From positions 1 through 25,569 of the IMG/VR virus record IMGVR_UViG_3300046011_002042: a stretch of 25,569 nucleotides of DNA, one strand, 5' to 3'. Within the stretch, counting starts at the first letter, position 1. The number at the start of each line of letters is the position of its first letter. This DNA comes from a virus. Position numbers and translations under genes: made by a program. Positions 1,793 through 23,069 of the stretch are shown here, piece after piece. The notes under the pieces were generated by a model. That model was not told the DNA's origin. It worked only from the letters and a program-made list of their open reading frames with translations, and ran no database searches.

Positions 1793-1951
1793 CTACTCTT
1801 TAGATGCTAGTCCGACAAGAATTTTGATTGCCTGTTCTTCGTTAAACCCTGCGCCCTGCAACTCCAAGAATAATTCATGTGTCTGCACAGCGAAAGCACC
1901 GAGAACGGACAAGACTCCACCGCCATTTAGGTCAGAGTAGTCGTGTTCCAC
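1793..1951 (-). CDS. Small conserved-looking protein before portal
   Basis: A 52-codon frame starts with GTG at 1951 and ends 9 bases before the portal start. The product reads from MEHDYSDLNGGG to a C-terminal half of amphipathic helix with GFNEEQAIKILVGLASKE. Short proteins with a 'GFxEEQAxxI' helical ending are common just upstream of structural genes in actinophages, as far as I recall, but their role is unknown to me. Codon use is like its neighbours, and it fills the whole gap between two certain genes. No strong ribosome binding site is visible, so the GTG start is a best guess; stop codons upstream leave little other choice. Confidence 0.6.
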   Translation of the reverse strand: MEHDYSDLNGGGVLSVLGAFAVQTHELFLELQGAGFNEEQAIKILVGLASKE

Positions 1952-1983
1952 CCAATGATTTTAGCATTAAGTGAATTTTGTAC

Positions 1984-2283
1984 TTATTCTCCGTCTAGGA
2001 CAAATTCCTTGCAATTCATACGCATAGTGGTAATTTCTTTTGCAAAGGCGCGAGCCATGTCTTTTGTACCCGCTTGAGCGTACATACGATGTTCTGTCTG
2101 CTCGCCAAGTGAATTAAATGAACGAAACGAAATCCTAAAAGGCAACTCATGGGATGTCTCGGTCAATTCGATTTCTACATAATCGCCCACATCAATCTTG
2201 TGCGATACGAACGGTCTGCCAGATTCGGATACAACGACTTTAGCGCCAGCAATATTGCTAACGAAGTAATCAGTCCAAGCCAC
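1984..2283 (-). CDS. Hypothetical protein, 99 aa
   Basis: The product is 99 residues and begins MAWTDYFVSNIAGAKVVVSE. It is predicted mostly beta-rich in the first two thirds (VGDYVEIELTE, LPFRISFRSFNS) and helical at the end (TKDMARAFAKEITTMRM). I recognise no family. Translation starts at GTG 2283, six bases after a good AGGGG ribosome binding site. It has its own promoter-like sequence upstream (see 2311-2331), separating it from the SSB gene. It is probably an early or accessory gene rather than a structural one, judging from the shared promoter type. Confidence 0.75.
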   Translation of the reverse strand: MAWTDYFVSNIAGAKVVVSESGRPFVSHKIDVGDYVEIELTETSHELPFRISFRSFNSLGEQTEHRMYAQAGTKDMARAFAKEITTMRMNCKEFVLDGE

Positions 2284-2310
2284 GATTTTCCCCTTTCATA
2301 AGGAAATTAT

Positions 2311-2331
2311 TAACCCCTATCATACTATACG
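2311..2331 (-). promoter_or_regulatory. Promoter with reverse AACCCC box
   Basis: On the minus strand a TATGAT -10 hexamer (2319-2324) is followed directly by AGGGGTTAATAA, which is the reverse complement of the AACCCC box found at other promoters in this window. The predicted start point lies about 30 bases before the GTG at 2283. The layout matches the sites at 10438 and 11473, where a -10 is also followed by GGGGTT. No clear -35 is visible. Confidence 0.5.
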
Positions 2332-2335
2332 ATGG

Positions 2336-2767
2336 TTAAAAAGGCGCAACATCCGAACTGAATGGAGCGCTCCAAGGGTCAGGCGTGGATGGATTGAATG
2401 AGGCATCTGTGCGCTGGACAACGCTTGCGGTGGTTACATGGCGCTTGAGGTCAATTCCAACATTCCATGCGGTGACGGCAATCTTTGAGCGCTTAGCCCC
2501 CGTTGCCTTGTCATCCCAATTCTCTTGAACTGCGGTTCCGACCACAATCACGGACATTCCCTTTTGAACTGAATCGGCTACATTCTCTGCGGTCTTACCC
2601 CAACATTTAATATCCCAAAATGTTGTATCGGTGTTTTCCCATGAGCCATCGGCTTGCTTAACTGATTTTGATGATACGACTGTAAAGGTTGCAATTGCTT
2701 TTCCGCTGGGGATAACACGCAACTCTGGGTCGGCTACTACATTTCCCGTTATAGTTAATTGAGTCAT
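2336..2767 (-). CDS. ssb: Single-stranded DNA-binding protein
   Basis: The 143-residue product starts MTQLTITGNVVADPELRVIP and has the OB-fold pattern of bacterial SSB: strand 1 (LTITGNVV), FTVVSSK, then TTFWDIKCWGKTAENVADSV (around residues 50-70) and GMSVIVVGTAVQE. The C-terminus ends in DVAPF, a variant of the acidic tip DDIPF that recruits partner proteins. It should coat single-stranded phage DNA and work with the ERF annealase and replisome organizer encoded near the right end. An in-frame extension upstream is possible but lacks SSB similarity; the ATG at 2767 has a GAAGGAAG ribosome binding site and overlaps the WhiB-like stop in a TAATG arrangement, so I chose it. Confidence 0.93.
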   Translation of the reverse strand: MTQLTITGNVVADPELRVIPSGKAIATFTVVSSKSVKQADGSWENTDTTFWDIKCWGKTAENVADSVQKGMSVIVVGTAVQENWDDKATGAKRSKIAVTAWNVGIDLKRHVTTASVVQRTDASFNPSTPDPWSAPFSSDVAPF

Positions 2768-3054
2768 TAGATTCTTCCTTCGGTAATAGGTATCGGGATG
2801 ATATTTAGTTTTGTTCTCATGCTTTGTCTTTCTCTGGCAGAGGTTCCTCCCCAGATTCCGACTACTGTGTAATGTAACGCGTAGGTCAGACATTCTTGTT
2901 TCCAAGGACACCTGCTACACATTGCCTTTACTTTTTTATTCTCCTCCGTGATTTTATTCTTGTCTGGAAAATAAAACTCTGTATCAATCTGTGAGCAAAT
3001 CGCTCCTTCGAACTGCCACGGTTTCAACACTAATAAATACTTCTCTCTCCTCAT
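2767..3054 (-). CDS. WhiB-like regulator (second of pair)
   Basis: This is a WhiB-family protein of about 95 residues. From the ATG at 3054, cysteines are at 20, 46, 49 and 55 (C, then CxxC, then C five residues on), the four ligands of the 4Fe-4S cluster, and GIWGG follows at 66-70, the hallmark turn. A basic tail rich in Arg (SARERQSMRTK) follows, as expected for DNA contact. WhiB proteins bind the primary sigma factor of actinobacteria and redirect transcription. The start is uncertain: a GTG at 3030 and a TTG just after are alternatives, and the AGGAGAGAG at 3044-3052 could be their ribosome binding site. Its 5' end overlaps the preceding WhiB-like gene by about 70 bases, and its stop overlaps the SSB start. 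Confidence 0.88.
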   Translation of the reverse strand: MRREKYLLVLKPWQFEGAICSQIDTEFYFPDKNKITEENKKVKAMCSRCPWKQECLTYALHYTVVGIWGGTSARERQSMRTKLNIIPIPITEGRI

Positions 3055-8392: not shown

Positions 8393-10366
8393 TTACATTC
8401 TCCTTATAGATAGTGATGCAATTGCTCCCACGATGACCGAGGCAACAACAACTGTTTGTGATTCTTCTCGTTCTGTATCGGACATATCTGCTCCGATACT
8501 TCCTAGCGCCAGAAGTGCCTTGGCAGGGTCAGAGAAAATTGCCCCTACCAATTCGGCTGGGTTTGCTACCAACTCAAGGGCATCAGCGACCTCCGCTGTA
8601 ATGACAATTGGTTCGCCACTTTCATCAACGCGGGTTTCAACTGGAGTCTCTGGAGGCAGGTCGCCGTAATCAATTCCCGCTTCAGCGATTGCCGATGCTG
8701 TTACTGGCTCGCCATCAAATTGAGCAATCAAGGCTTCAGCAACAATTTCTTTTTCGGCTTCCGTCAATTTGCCATCCGCTTGAACTGAATCCACAATTGA
8801 TGCAACTTCATCGGCGGTGACATTGCCATCGGCTAAGATGTCATCCAATATTTCAGAGGGAGATTCAGATGGTGGTTCAGGAGATGGTTCTTCTACTGGC
8901 GTTGGTGGCTCTGCTGGCTCTGGTTCTGGCTCGGGCGCTACATCAGGCGGTTCAACTGGTTCGGGCTGAGGCTCGGGTTCGGGTTCTGGAGCAGGAGTTG
9001 GTTCAGGCTCGCTCGGCAATGGTTCTGGCTCAGGCTCGGGAATGGGAGTTTCATCGGGAGTCGGGGAAGGCTCGGGAGATGGATTAGGTTCTGGCTCTGG
9101 TGCAGGTGGCTCGGGTTCAGGTGTAGGTTCAGGTTCAACGGCAGGAGGAATAGGCGATGGCAAAGGTGTGGGTTCAGGTGTGGACTGCGAAGGTTCCTGG
9201 GGCTGTTGAGGTTGAGGAGTCGGAGTTACGGCAGGTTCAGGGGTTGGAGTCGCTGAAGAAGATGGTTCCGATGTTGGTGAAGGAGACGGCTCACTCGGAG
9301 TGGGCGATGGTTGCGGATTGGTCGCGGTCTCCGTTGGTGTCGGTTGAGGAGACGGTTGAGGTTCTTGAGCCGAAGGACTTGGAGACGGTTCAGGAGATGG
9401 AGAAGGAGAAGTCATATCAGGAGAAGGCGTTGGCGAAGGGCTGGGGCTGGGTTCTGGGGCTTGAGGGTCATCAGTATAAGCAAGACTGACCGCTAAAGAT
9501 TTATATGTTCCACCGCAAGGGTCACCAAACAAATCATTGATTGCCATGATTGTCGCAATTGCTTTCCCTAAAAACATTTCTGCAACTTTTTCTACAGAAC
9601 TCGGTGCATGACATTGACCGATTGAATATCCGTTTGGTGTTCCGTAACTTGCAAATATAACTGAGGTAAATATCTTTCCAATTGGAGCAGAAAGAGTTAG
9701 ACCGTCATTTTCATTCACAGTACCATTCACGCTATTAACTTGAGGGGCAGGGGTAGGCGATGGAGTTTGTGATGGTTCTGGTGTTGGCGATGGGCTTGGC
9801 TCTGGGCTGGATGTTGGGTCTGGACTCGGGGAAAAAGTCGGTTCGGGAGTCGGAGAAGGCGTACTGGTTTCGGATGGTGAAGGACTTGGAATTGGAGTTA
9901 CGGTTGGCGAAGGCGAAGGTGAAGGCTCGGGCGTTGGTGCAGGAGCAGGAGAACTCACCGAGACCGTAAAGATTGGTCCGTACCATCCACCCCAAAATCC
10001 AGCATCTATGCCTGAAACAGAAATTGTTGCTTGACCCGATACCACAGCGCTGACCGTTGCAACTTCGATTGTGTTGCCACTAAAACTTTGACCATTGATT
10101 GAAACTGTCCAGTTATCAGGTATTGGCGTACAGGAACCGATGCAGTTTGCGATTGTGTTATCAATGGTGACGGTGACGGTTGAGCCATCTGAGACGGATG
10201 TTATGTACGAGGCGCTACCGCCTCGATAATCAAATTGGATTGAACTGCCCGAGACATTGCCGTTTACCACGGATTCCCATGCGTTATCAGCCCCAGCATC
10301 ATCTATGGGTAAAAGGGCTAGGAGGATGATGATGAGGAAGGCTATTCCTAAGCGCAAATACCTCAT
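8393..10366 (-). CDS. Secreted Pro-rich protein with SUEL-type lectin
   Basis: The 657-residue product has a signal peptide ([14 protein letters not shown], 6-19) followed by a beta-rich domain (about 28-138) with Ser, Thr and Gly, including [15 protein letters not shown] first PSP/PEP linker covers 139-209. Residues 211-298 match SUEL-type (galactose/rhamnose-binding) lectins: [20 protein letters not shown], then TPNG, C252, and the hallmark [20 protein letters not shown] longer Pro-Glu-Ser linker spans 302-503. The C-terminus has repeated ADGxxTxxE helices, then a hydrophobic segment ([17 protein letters not shown], about 638-654) ending in RRM, which suggests a membrane anchor. It may bind cell-surface glycans during adsorption, or act on the host surface. 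The ribosome binding site is AAGGGGG, masked by a hairpin (10368-10388). Its place next to holins is unusual for an adhesin. Confidence 0.78.
8858..9463 (-). repeat. Low-complexity Pro-Glu-Ser coding repeat
   Basis: This stretch encodes roughly 200 residues of PSP, PEP and PEPEPEP units in the large lectin gene. A shorter linker of the same kind lies at 9740-9952. On the plus strand it is rich in GGTTC and GGCTC units. It is a spacer, not an independent repeat array, and probably varies in length between related phages by slippage. Confidence 0.75.
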
Positions 10367-17618: not shown

Positions 17619-18809
17619 TTATTCTACCTCGGTTGTACACGCTTCTAATGGTATCTGTAATAACTCGGCTATGTCAGTCCAGCCGTATATCGTGTTAGCC
17701 CATGTGTTCAAATCCTCGGTGTGAACTCGCATTGAATGATTACCTACTCGGATGTTTGTTCGACCAATTGGAATATGCCCAGGCTTGGTCTTTCCTCCTG
17801 AAAGAATCTCGGCTACTTCTTCCCTAGAGAATCCCGTTCCCTTGGTACTCGTACTGGTCAGTAACTTATTTAGTTCTTGAGAGTCATAGGTGGCAAGGTC
17901 TGAAGTTCGGTTATCCACGATGAGGATTTTGATTTCCTCTACATCATCTACTTCAATCCAATGAACTGCAATCTTCTCCCAGCCAAGTTGAACTGCCGCT
18001 TGAAGTGTGTGGTTTCCTGATACGCAATGCTTTGTAGGGCGATTGACCACAATCGGTCTGTACTGCCCCATGGTTGAGAGTGAATCAATGATTGCTCCAA
18101 TATCACCCTCACGCGGATTCAAGGGGTGAGTAAGAATCTCGTTCACGGATACGGTTTCTACATCTTCAGGCGAACTCTCCGAGCGCTCCTCAATCCGTTC
18201 TGGCTTCTCCATGATTCGCTCTGGAAATCCTAGGCGTTGTTTAATCCCTGCGTTGGCTTTGCTCTTAGTCTTTCCGAACTCCTCGTAAAGTTGCTCTTTC
18301 CACGCATCGTAGGCATCTTGCTCAACTGAAAACTTCCACGCCGCTATCTTTACCTCTGGGTCATCCTTTAGGTTCCCAGAGGTTCCTAAAGGTTCCTTTT
18401 GGTCACCTGATATGAGACGGTCAAGCGTATCTACCTCGGACTGTGTGAATCCCGTGCCATCCAACTCAGGAAGCGCTTGCAAGAGGCTTTTGAGAAGTGG
18501 CTCGTTATATCCAGCAAGGTCAGTTAGGCGGTTATCGGCTAGAACAATCTTCTTGGCTGTGTCATCGTCTACATCAACGAGAACTGCCTTTATCTTTTTC
18601 CAACCAAGTTTCTTAGCCGCTTTAAGAGTGTGATTACCTGCGAGAACAAACTTGGTACTCGCTTGAACCACGATAGGGCGATATTGACCATGAGCAGTAA
18701 GCGATGATGCAATGGCATCTATGTCTCCTCGTCTCGGATTAGTAGGGTAGGCGGTAAGCGAACTGATACTTACACTTTGAATGTTTCCCGTCTGGATATT
18801 GGCTTTCAT
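17619..18809 (-). CDS. Protein with two ParB-like domains
   Basis: The 396-residue product carries the ParB/Srx-like domain twice: about 12-130 and 220-337. Each copy has NPRxGDIxAI, GQYRPIVV, the GNHTL motif (58-62 and 265-269), a xxLGWxKI strand, a DNR turn and GTGF near the end. Between them are charged segments with a Lys/Glu-rich run (ERIMEKPERIEERSESS) and the C-terminus (about 340-396) is distinct. ParB-like domains bind or cut DNA, or hydrolyse CTP; here neither is proved. It overlaps the CmoA-like gene as ATGA and is followed by TerS. ParB-domain proteins next to a methyltransferase and terminase are frequent in phages, but a tandem pair is less so. Confidence 0.88.
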   Translation of the reverse strand: MKANIQTGNIQSVSISSLTAYPTNPRRGDIDAIASSLTAHGQYRPIVVQASTKFVLAGNHTLKAAKKLGWKKIKAVLVDVDDDTAKKIVLADNRLTDLAGYNEPLLKSLLQALPELDGTGFTQSEVDTLDRLISGDQKEPLGTSGNLKDDPEVKIAAWKFSVEQDAYDAWKEQLYEEFGKTKSKANAGIKQRLGFPERIMEKPERIEERSESSPEDVETVSVNEILTHPLNPREGDIGAIIDSLSTMGQYRPIVVNRPTKHCVSGNHTLQAAVQLGWEKIAVHWIEVDDVEEIKILIVDNRTSDLATYDSQELNKLLTSTSTKGTGFSREEVAEILSGGKTKPGHIPIGRTNIRVGNHSMRVHTEDLNTWANTIYGWTDIAELLQIPLEACTTEVE

Positions 18810-19456
18810 TTAACAAAGAGCCAAGCCTCGAAATTGTAAAACTTCCAGAACATCGTGCCAACTGTGAAGCCAGCGTTCTCAGCCATAATGTAATTACGCA
18901 TTGAGGTATTGGTCTGCATGATAGGGCGAAGGTCTCGCTCTTTCTTCATAATCTCGGATGCGCTGAAGTGAAGGCGCTTGAAGTCGTAGTACGCCGAATT
19001 CATAACACGCTCAAGTTCTCCAGACTCCTCATGCACTTTCTCAGCCCAGATAAAAGCCCCGCCCTCAGCCAACTCATCGTAGACAAGGCTCAAGATATTA
19101 GGGCGGTCTGCCAATGGTAGGAACTGAAGCGTAAAGAGTGAGATGACCAAGGATGGAGTCTTGCCCAGATTCTTGAATGAGCGTAAATCCTTTTGGACAT
19201 ATTGAACTTCGTCATGGCTATCAGGTAACAAGTTGCCAGAAATATCAATCCCCAGTTTGGTTCCCTCAAATGGAATGGACTCAAGAAGTTTGCCTGTTGA
19301 GCATCCTAAATCAACAATACTGAAATCTTCTTTTGCGTAGAAAGTAGCCAAGTCTCGAACTGAATCATTCAAAAGGTGATAGTTCGGGATGGACTTAGCG
19401 ATGTGGTCATCAAAGTCTGTAATCGTGTCAAATGAAAATGGCTCAGTAGAACTCAT
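18806..19456 (-). CDS. CmoA-like SAM-dependent enzyme
   Basis: From ATG 19456 (GGGGAG ribosome binding site inside the MTase gene) the product has 216 residues. It has a Rossmann methyltransferase motif I (IVDLGCSTGKLLES, from 47) and then the sequence LVISLFTLQFLPLADRPNIL and LAEGGAFIWAEKV. The end runs YYDFKRLHFSASEIMKK and NAGFTVGTMFWKFYNFEAW. The FTLQFL, EK, DFKR and F--FNF blocks and their spacing match CmoA, which makes carboxy-S-adenosylmethionine from SAM and prephenate. From memory, E. coli CmoA uses Arg199 and Asn132 for the carboxyl cofactor; ungapped alignment puts Glu (with Arg next) and Leu there. It may make carboxy-SAM or another SAM derivative. It overlaps the MTase gene by 14 bases. 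TTG 19480 is a possible but weaker start. Confidence 0.78.
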   Translation of the reverse strand: MSSTEPFSFDTITDFDDHIAKSIPNYHLLNDSVRDLATFYAKEDFSIVDLGCSTGKLLESIPFEGTKLGIDISGNLLPDSHDEVQYVQKDLRSFKNLGKTPSLVISLFTLQFLPLADRPNILSLVYDELAEGGAFIWAEKVHEESGELERVMNSAYYDFKRLHFSASEIMKKERDLRPIMQTNTSMRNYIMAENAGFTVGTMFWKFYNFEAWLFVK

Positions 19457-20516
19457 GTAATTTTCTCCCCATTGCTTCAACTACTGGAATCGTGATTGTG
19501 CGCCCACATCGTTCGTAGCGCTGTGTGTCTGGAACTCTTGAACCGTCTGCATAGAACTCTGTCCAGCCATCGGGTAATCCTTGCAAGCGCTCGCACTCAA
19601 GCGGTGTAAGTTTGCGGATTCCAAAGTCATTTTCGTTACCAATTTGAACTCCGTGTCTATCTTGAGCCGTAATTGTGTACATCGGGTCGCCATCATCTTT
19701 AATCATTCGACCATTCGGACTCTTATTGACTCGGGCTACATCTAAGACAGGGCGCACAAAAGGAACATTTCCACCGCCTGTACCCATCTGGGCTAAAAGG
19801 GTTGGAACTATTCCCTCGTCATAGGTACGCATTGCTTTATCTCTACGGCTCCAAGTCTCAACTACATAAGGGCGAGAGTTCCCGCCTTTGTAGTAGTGAG
19901 CATCTATGGTTGGAGAAATGTCGGAGAAAAGCCCCTGCCTTCCTTTTTGTTGGCGGATGTTCGTCTCATTATCTCCGCTACCTGTTTTTCCGATAGGGAA
20001 TACTTTGGGTCTGGCGTGACTTCTAAGATTTGCGATAAGGAATACCCGTTCTCGGTGCTGTGGGATACCGAAGTTTTGGCTGTCAAGCAACTCCCATTGA
20101 CAGTCATACCCCATTTCATCCAAGACTGCCAAGATGATTCCAAAGGTTCTTCCTTTGTCGTGGTTGAGGAGTCCTTTGACATTCTCAAATAAGATGTACG
20201 GTATTCCTTTATCCCGAGCGAGGCGAAACATTTCAAAAGCGAGTGTGCCTCTAGTGTCCTCCAAAGAGAACCCTGTTCTGTTTCCCGCAGTTGAAAAAGT
20301 TGCACAAGGAAATCCTCCAACGAGGAGGTCGGCATCTGGAAGGTCTCCAGCGGAAACATCTCTAATGTCTCTGCCATCTGGTTTGTCTCCGAAGTTTCTT
20401 TCATAAATACTCCTTGGTTTGTCTAGCCACTCATTAGCCCATACGCACTCATGCCCAGTATTTTCTAAGCCGAGGCGAAATGCACCAATGCCAGCAAATA
20501 ATTCAATGAACTTCAT
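19443..20516 (-). CDS. C5-cytosine DNA methyltransferase, altered cofactor pocket
   Basis: The 357-residue product contains all main C5-methyltransferase motifs: FAGIGAF (7-13, motif I), GGFPCATFS (67-75, motif IV with catalytic C71), FENVKGL (110-116, motif VI), QHRERVF (153-159, motif VIII), and RYERCGRTITIPVVEAMGRK ending at 352 (motif X). Two positions are unusual. The Gln that normally follows the catalytic Cys (PCQ) is Ala72. The Asn of the GN[SA][VI] motif is Arg339 (CGRTI). These match M.HhaI Gln82 and Asn304, which contact the region around the SAM methyl group. The enzyme would thus have a larger pocket with a positive charge. The target-recognition region (about 170-300) gives no specificity I can name. 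The CmoA-like gene overlaps its 3' end, arguing for a shared role. Confidence 0.93.
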   Translation of the reverse strand: MKFIELFAGIGAFRLGLENTGHECVWANEWLDKPRSIYERNFGDKPDGRDIRDVSAGDLPDADLLVGGFPCATFSTAGNRTGFSLEDTRGTLAFEMFRLARDKGIPYILFENVKGLLNHDKGRTFGIILAVLDEMGYDCQWELLDSQNFGIPQHRERVFLIANLRSHARPKVFPIGKTGSGDNETNIRQQKGRQGLFSDISPTIDAHYYKGGNSRPYVVETWSRRDKAMRTYDEGIVPTLLAQMGTGGGNVPFVRPVLDVARVNKSPNGRMIKDDGDPMYTITAQDRHGVQIGNENDFGIRKLTPLECERLQGLPDGWTEFYADGSRVPDTQRYERCGRTITIPVVEAMGRKLHEFY

Positions 20517-21944: not shown

Positions 21945-22336
21945 AGGTCAGATGCCACCTCTCCGTTACCATCTGCCATATCAGCACTTGATTTGCCTTT
22001 CGCTAATGTTTCCCGAATCTGAGATAAATAAAAATTCACTTGCTCTGGTGTCGCCGCTTTTGTCCGAGTATCTTCCAACTCCAACATATAGCGCTGGGTT
22101 GCTTCTCGGTCTCTTTCATTCTGTCGCTGTCGAACCCATTCTTTGTTGAAATATACGGGAGCAATAACCTTTTCGTCATTCATGTAATGAACCGACACAA
22201 AATACTTTGCGAACTCAAAAGTCATATCTGGCAACAAAGCGGAATCCCATGCAAGGATTTTTCCCTCATCGGCTTGAAGCCGACCATCAAAAAGACAGGC
22301 GTAGGCAAAAAGTTGGGCTACCTCAGAACGGTTCAT
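21941..22336 (-). CDS. Hypothetical replication-region protein, 131 aa
   Basis: The product begins MNRSEVAQLFAYACLFDGRL and continues with WDSALLPDMTFEFAKYFVSV, then a charged helix (EWVRQRQNERDREATQRYML). The layout, a short N-terminal helical domain followed by 'VRQR', is what I recall from actinophage proteins encoded after the replisome organizer, possibly helicase loader or accessory factors. The overlap of 14 bases with the replisome organizer gene supports a shared job in replication. No specific motif proves this. Confidence 0.75.
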   Translation of the reverse strand: MNRSEVAQLFAYACLFDGRLQADEGKILAWDSALLPDMTFEFAKYFVSVHYMNDEKVIAPVYFNKEWVRQRQNERDREATQRYMLELEDTRTKAATPEQVNFYLSQIRETLAKGKSSADMADGNGEVASDL

Positions 22337-23069
22337 TCCCTATCGCCCTCTCTCTTTCTTCTTCATCAATAAACTTTTGAGCAATATCCAACGCTCGCAT
22401 AACTGAGGTCTCGGTACGAGTCACAGCATTACCGCGACTCGGCAGAGGAGTATCAGTCCAGCGCTCTTGATTTAGCCAAGTAGATGCGTGAGCCGTGAAC
22501 TCAGGCTGACGATTAGGGTCACTAGCAAATCTCTTTGCTCCCTCAATAATCAACTCAACAGAGGCTTTTTTGCAAGCCTTCATAAATGCTGTCCTTGCCG
22601 CGCCTTTGGCTTCTTTTCTTGGATAGATAGCCCAAAACAAATTGAACTCCGAATCCGAAGGATTCGTGTGTATATCTATATTGGGTATGGGTATGGGTAT
22701 GGGATGGGTATGGGGCGGTTGAACTTCGCCCGAAGTTACGCCATCTGTTCGCCGTAACGACCTAGAGCGTTGCATACGGTCTGCCGCTTTTTTACGCTCA
22801 GTTTCGACTTTTTCCTTCGTAAATTGGTACTCATCGTAACCCAAAATCTTGATGTCATCCCCGCAAATTTCCCACAAGTTTGCTCCAACTAATGCCGAAA
22901 TATGGCGAGAGTTTGATAGTTTTTTAACCGTATTTATCGGAATAATGCCATCGGTAAGGTAGGCATTGGAATAGCAAAGGGCTGTGATGTAAAGACGGAA
23001 GGCTCCGTCACTCAATCCAATAATCTTTGGATGGTTAGGAAACCCATCATCAATCCTTACCCAAGTCAT
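22323..23069 (-). CDS. Replisome organizer / replication initiator
   Basis: From ATG 23069 (AAGGAGAGAGA ribosome binding site) the product has 248 residues. The N-terminal part, MTWVRIDDGFPNHPKIIGLS then GAFRLYITALCYSNAYLTDG, is a winged-helix DNA-binding domain typical of phage replisome organizers. The C-terminal part, FNLFWAIYPRKEAKGAARTA and ASTWLNQERWTD, resembles the domain that recruits helicase or its loader. A Pro/Ile-rich linker (PHTHPIPIPIPNIDIH) joins them and is encoded by a tandem G-tract repeat that may be the origin, as in lambda O. It is followed by a protein of unknown function with overlapping genes. Confidence 0.85.
   Translation of the reverse strand: MTWVRIDDGFPNHPKIIGLSDGAFRLYITALCYSNAYLTDGIIPINTVKKLSNSRHISALVGANLWEICGDDIKILGYDEYQFTKEKVETERKKAADRMQRSRSLRRTDGVTSGEVQPPHTHPIPIPIPNIDIHTNPSDSEFNLFWAIYPRKEAKGAARTAFMKACKKASVELIIEGAKRFASDPNRQPEFTAHASTWLNQERWTDTPLPSRGNAVTRTETSVMRALDIAQKFIDEEERERAIGNEPF
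22650..22737. other. Candidate replication origin with G-tracts
   Basis: CGAATCC/GGATTCG (22650-22666) is an inverted repeat, followed by an AT-rich segment GTATATCTATATT (up to 22682). Then come six runs of three or more G separated by TAT, TAT, TAT, AT and TAT (22683-22715), and a second inverted repeat AACTTCG/CGAAGTT (22722-22737). It lies inside the linker of the replisome organizer gene, as lambda's origin lies in O. The G-tracts on the plus strand could also form a quadruplex. Confidence 0.5.

Follow-up and report, generated by a model that had tools for sequence, protein, structure and literature searches.

In phage lambda, the replication origin lies inside the initiator gene O, in the DNA encoding the linker between the N-terminal DNA-binding and the C-terminal partner-binding parts of the protein. 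The gene O sequence, examined here for comparison, contains four iterons, an AT-rich stretch and an imperfect inverted repeat (TTCGTCAGA/TTCTGGCGAA, read by eye), in that order. For extrachromosomal mycobacterial prophages, the RepA origin has been placed by its authors, citing lambda, probably in or next to repA, with no repeated motifs being recognised (PMC7157519). These prophages resemble the locus described here in the suggested position of the origin, a comparison made by description. The DnaA-trio and the plasmid Rep/DUE motifs are likewise short tandem motifs beside the double-strand sites of an initiator, and binding of Rep to single-stranded DNA of the DUE has been reported (PMC4081077).

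The window analysed here is the whole 25,569-nucleotide stretch of the virus record IMGVR_UViG_3300046011_002042. It carries a gene (Table 1) whose product consists of an N-terminal winged-helix (wH) domain, a disordered linker and a C-terminal helical YPRK/TWLN domain. The protein probably starts at the ATG (MTWVRIDD) rather than at the upstream GTG, since relatives align from there. In profile searches it matches PHROG replication-initiation families with E values from 3.8e-28 to 1.8e-16, and no Pfam family. An AF2 model shows wH-like secondary structure for residues 1-108, disorder for residues 109-134 at the position of the array, and helices for residues 139-200. The PDB gave neither a sequence match nor a confident fold match, which leaves the wH fold unconfirmed by solved structures, and the viral structure models that do match are actinophage HTH proteins, RepA-like initiators and replisome organizers. 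Homologues are found in 253 actinophage records, several of them annotated as RepA-like replication initiators adjoining a DnaB-like helicase. The gene product is a member of the actinophage RepA-like replication initiators (PHROG 2447, 3926, 270 and 9327), and these actinophage homologues indicate that the hosts are probably freshwater actinobacteria. The early region shared with the initiator also contains genes for a ParB-N-like protein and a C5 cytosine methyltransferase (17619-18809 and 19443-20516).

Inside the initiator gene, between the DNA-binding and partner domains as placed by the profile match and the AF2 model, lies a block of short DNA elements (Table 1) that is unannotated in the RepA-like initiator records of the phages examined. 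Its centre is a G-tract array with the spacers TAT, TAT, TAT, AT and TAT; the coding strand reads as CCCATA units translated as PHTHPIPIPIP. Dinucleotide shuffling of the window (300 shuffles) produced 0.02 four-run arrays per window and not a single six-run array, and a chance origin is thereby ruled out. The hairpin has a DNA folding energy of -5.7 kcal/mol (z -3.3). The iterons of the window, one palindrome and one GTTACG pair, are weaker than those of its relatives; the GTAACG motif of the pair is common to L022, L034, L054, L067, L124 and L262. An earlier note on this DNA had described six G-runs, 7-bp inverted repeats and an AT-rich neighbour in the linker between the DNA-binding and partner-binding parts of the initiator. 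All of these are present, and the predicted disorder of residues 109-134 agrees with the linker assignment. The two 7-bp repeats said to flank the array are also there, but as two separate local hairpins or palindromes and not as the arms of one pair.

Table 1. Features of the initiator gene and of the block within it (window coordinates).
Feature	Position	Strand	Description
Replication initiator gene	22323-23069	-	248 aa from ATG 23069; ORF reaches GTG 23102
G-tract array	22683-22715	+	six G-runs, GGG(TAT/AT) unit; GGGTATGGGTATGGGTATGGGATGGGTATGGGG
Hairpin CGAATCC-GAA-GGATTCG	22650-22666	+	7 bp stem, 3-nt loop c(GAA)g on + strand
AT-rich stretch TGTGTATATCTATATT	22667-22682	no strand	16 nt, 81% AT; candidate unwinding element
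Palindrome AACTTCGCCCGAAGTT	22722-22737	no strand	AACTTCG-CC-CGAAGTT; 7 bp, 2-nt loop; candidate initiator-binding iteron
Inverted pair GTTACGCC...CGCCGTAAC	22735-22758	no strand	candidate iteron

The only other four-run array in the window is found at 9438-9459 (GGGCTGGGGCTGGGTTCTGGGG), across from a gene for a protein of 657 aa (8393-10366, minus strand), where the GC skew is very strong (up to 0.46). An identical copy is present in the relatives G002 and G003.

A comparison of the linker DNA among related phages had been proposed as a check. Relatives were gathered with the protein sequence of the wH domain as the sole criterion of similarity, leaving 86 after dereplication, and an array was scored wherever the coding strand had four or more CCC runs in the 300 nt that follow this domain. 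By this measure an array is carried by 73 of the 86 relatives (85%); among 1130 background tiles it is seen in 9 on the same strand and in 3 on the opposite one. G-runs are on the coding strand in just one of the 86. The number of runs per array peaks at five, and the spacers of the 73 arrays are nearly all 1-3 nt long, with mixed lengths in 15. The units seen include CCCGA, CCCGT, CCCAT, CCCGTA, CCCATA and CCCGTT. A tree of the wH domain shows at least 29 changes of the dominant spacer, at least 11 of its length and 12 of the presence of the array; such frequent change in the spacers while the triplets persist indicates that the triplets are retained and that the spacers can vary freely. Counts were restricted to protein-selected loci, and matches from a pattern search, many of them unrelated genes that have Gly/Pro repeats, were left out of the statistics. 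In one relative (G003, 60452 bp; L306/L309) the two contig ends overlap within the initiator gene, and one end has exactly one GGGTAT unit more than the other, which suggests either slippage or a copy number that varies in the population. The contigs of several other relatives likewise terminate at the array.

Judged from how its sequence is kept, the conserved block almost certainly functions at the level of DNA. The strongest single argument for selection on the DNA is the persistence of the array past a stop codon: in six wH-only initiators the array follows the end of the gene (L034, L054, L067 and L083, from the pattern search and therefore illustrative and uncounted, and L260 and L262, from the protein search). 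In the window family the array DNA is translated as PIPIPI, and in L038 (also an uncounted pattern match), L091 and L096 the same DNA gives THTHTHT, while five-base units give PTRPD cycles and some arrays encode SQSQSLSQS. The N-terminal part of L038 is different and presumably DUF1376-like. The L096 protein (1932-2801, minus strand) is initiator-like and has no detected similarity to the initiator of the window; its CCCATA array (SHTHTHTHTQTH) lies in another frame.

The same linker could in principle be a proline-rich flexible spacer (PIPIPIP) that has grown by hexanucleotide slippage in DNA of no function, an account which would fit the disorder of the linker in the AF2 model, the Pro-rich peptides encoded by many arrays and the one-unit difference between the overlapping ends of G003. 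It is opposed by the appearance of the same DNA in different frames and past stop codons, by the 5-nt units, by the SQSQSLSQS and THTHTHT peptides and by the palindromes and covarying hairpin that accompany the array. It also fails at the level of codons. Proline codons of the window gene outside the array are CCT (5), CCG (4) and CCA (2), with no CCC, the codon that the array uses. When the synonymous codons of this gene were resampled, only 0.5% of trials regained a four-run array, and among the relatives such resampling predicts 12.8 of the 71 coding arrays. In comparisons between relatives at 58-63% amino acid identity, the array codons are identical in every case, whereas outside the array identical residues are encoded by different codons about half of the time. 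Selection on the peptide or codon bias is ruled out by the resampling, by this codon identity and by the spacer changes on the wH tree, and the account as a whole is already largely refuted and very improbable. The earlier note had named a conserved protein with a lost DNA repeat as one outcome that would refute its reading; the opposite is found, the DNA repeat being kept while the peptide changes.

The array is accompanied by other elements in a conserved order and on a conserved strand: palindromes, array, AT dip and hairpin. The upstream palindromes vary from phage to phage (GTAACGnCGTTAC, GTCACGCGTGAC, GTTCGCGCGAAC and others), and in several relatives a half-site occurs 4-8 times. Inverted repeats of 6 bp or more are found upstream of the array in 50 of 72 relatives, with 23.6 expected from codon shuffles. 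Because arrays and palindromes vary independently, the palindromes are the better candidates for wH sites, and the G-array itself is probably not bound by the wH domain. Downstream, the GC content of the family falls by 22 points within the first 10 nt. A hairpin with a stem of at least 6 bp within 70 nt downstream of the array is present in 41 of 72 relatives, as against 3.2 expected from shuffles, 7.0 from synonymous resampling and 6% in control tiles. The stems of 34 hairpins near the array are unrelated, but all have a C-G closing pair, and their loops are mostly TAAC, TAAA, TGAC, TAC or TAGC. On the G-rich (template) strand, 18 of 28 tetraloops are of the GNNA type, compared with 7 of 175 in background hairpins; C-G-closed GNNA and GNA loops are unusually stable DNA loops. 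In the window family, ten unique hairpin variants retain pairs 1-6, with two-sided changes (covariation) at pairs 4-6.

These hairpins raise the question of whether the element works in RNA, with the C-rich array and stem-loop of the initiator mRNA serving Rho utilization or pausing, or translational control. The mRNA strand is indeed C-rich and then folds into a stem-loop, UAAC and UGAC loops resemble the UNAC tetraloops of RNA, and the phase of the loop relative to the reading frame is constant in 32 of 34 cases. Folding energies fail to separate the two strands and so do not distinguish a DNA from an RNA hairpin. Against a role in RNA stand the palindromic iterons just upstream, which resemble protein sites, the retention of the array in untranslated DNA, the absence of a terminator-like T-run and the existence of alternative arrays (GAGACA, CAGAATA and ATAAAG) that are not C-rich. 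An RNA-level element is accordingly considered unlikely.

The reading preferred here is that the block is most probably a replication origin of the lambda type within the initiator gene. The earlier note had drawn the likeness to lambda, which the palindromic iterons upstream and the AT dip and covarying hairpin downstream now extend. The comparison is one of layout. Unlike lambda, the actinophage block has an array of 4-8 G-runs between the iterons and the AT stretch. The AT-rich region of the window is shorter (16 nt, 81% AT) and is split from the iterons by the array, the iterons differ from phage to phage, and the stem of the hairpin is short and perfect, with a C-G-closed loop of 3-4 nt. 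The kind of in-gene origin is already known; what would set this one apart is the G-tract element, which is absent from lambda. A search of the open-access literature, with subscription journals outside its scope, found no description of the module.

The G-tract array has at least four runs of three or more G with short loops, conserved as runs, as expected for a sequence that forms a quadruplex. Such a structure is plausible for the G-tract class but not as a general feature, since close relatives carry arrays that are not G-based and the quadruplex cannot be the whole story. Thirteen of the 86 wH relatives lack a four-run array. L124 and L125, whose wH domain is 48% identical to that of the window and which have the same GTAACG motifs, carry (CAGAATA)3 instead; together these cases indicate that the G-tracts are not indispensable. 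(GAGACA)n is carried by Catfish, ThulaThula, Rousseau and pAmyYIM10, and a strict requirement for a quadruplex is weakened by both arrays.

Whether the array of such an origin would instead consist of repeated duplex or single-strand sites, bound by a protein such as primase, SSB or a loader, is a question on which the chances are taken to be even. The analogy with the DnaA-trio or the single-strand motifs of the plasmid DUE favours sites, although the actinophage array is GGG-based and not A/T-based. So do sister classes with other short arrays in the same place (GAGACA, CAGAATA, ATAAAG and GGAACAGG), which are found in 19 of 58 non-redundant relatives of the C-terminal domain as against 1 of 888 background tiles, with a hairpin following the array in 10 of the 19. 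On the other side, the wH family keeps the triplets while the spacers change in sequence and length, and the combination of four or more runs in 85% of relatives with spacers of 1-3 nt, mixed in length in 15 of 73, is allowed by a quadruplex but not by a fixed site. ATAAAG, GGAACAGG, GAGACA and CAGAATA arrays are seen at L111-L127, L142-L143, L169, L174 and L184, in the linkers of initiators with other N-terminal domains; those with 7- and 8-nt periods cannot encode a simple peptide repeat.

Related blocks are also found in plasmids, and because plasmids are replicons in their own right this favours a function as an origin. A circular Saccharopolyspora plasmid has an iteron, a CCCCT array and a hairpin with a TAAC loop, and a circular Amycolatopsis plasmid has GCGATCGC sites with (GAGACA)n. 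The initiator of the Rhodococcus plasmid pRA1 (NC_010882, 9.4 kb) has the same C-terminal domain as that of the window, and four 23-bp palindromic iterons lie in its coding linker (L310:404-494), from which the G-tract array is absent. These iterons have no entry in the gene table. Iterons also occur at partition and incompatibility sites, and the block might therefore be a cis site of another kind, for packaging, recombination, partition or incompatibility. This is most unlikely, given that the block lies in or directly after the initiator gene throughout the family, that iterons in the linker are seen again in a small plasmid for which this initiator is the candidate replication gene, and that the terminase and integrase genes are located elsewhere. 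GC skew offers an indirect test of the origin: the extremum falls at the initiator gene in MrSmee only (32097, with the gene at 32435-33181) and not in Jinkies, Dardanus or three relatives of 55-61 kb. In all, one of four complete phages agrees, and the skew lends the origin no consistent support.

At an origin of this kind, the wH domain of the initiator would bind the palindromic iterons just before the array (22722-22758) and this binding would open the adjoining AT-rich stretch. The G-array could then hold the opened strands apart, either through a quadruplex of the G-rich (plus, template) strand or through repeated single-strand sites bound by the initiator or a host factor. The downstream hairpin would form on the exposed single strand and may mark or limit the site of loading or priming, and the C-terminal domain would recruit the helicase machinery.

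It is possible, though on balance somewhat doubtful, that these loci represent a widespread class of in-gene origins in actinobacterial phages and phage-plasmids, in which a conserved G-quadruplex array and a stable C(GNNA)G or C(GNA)G hairpin on the same strand would replace or assist the AT-rich element and could be exchanged between initiators whose DNA-binding domains are unrelated. For most phages of actinobacteria the origin has, to our knowledge, not been mapped. A recognisable DNA signature within a gene that can be identified would allow candidate origins to be located together in a large number of phages, prophages and phage-plasmids, and would supply candidate minimal replicons for actinobacterial vectors. 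It would also offer a phage system in which to ask whether a quadruplex takes part in the initiation of bacterial replication.
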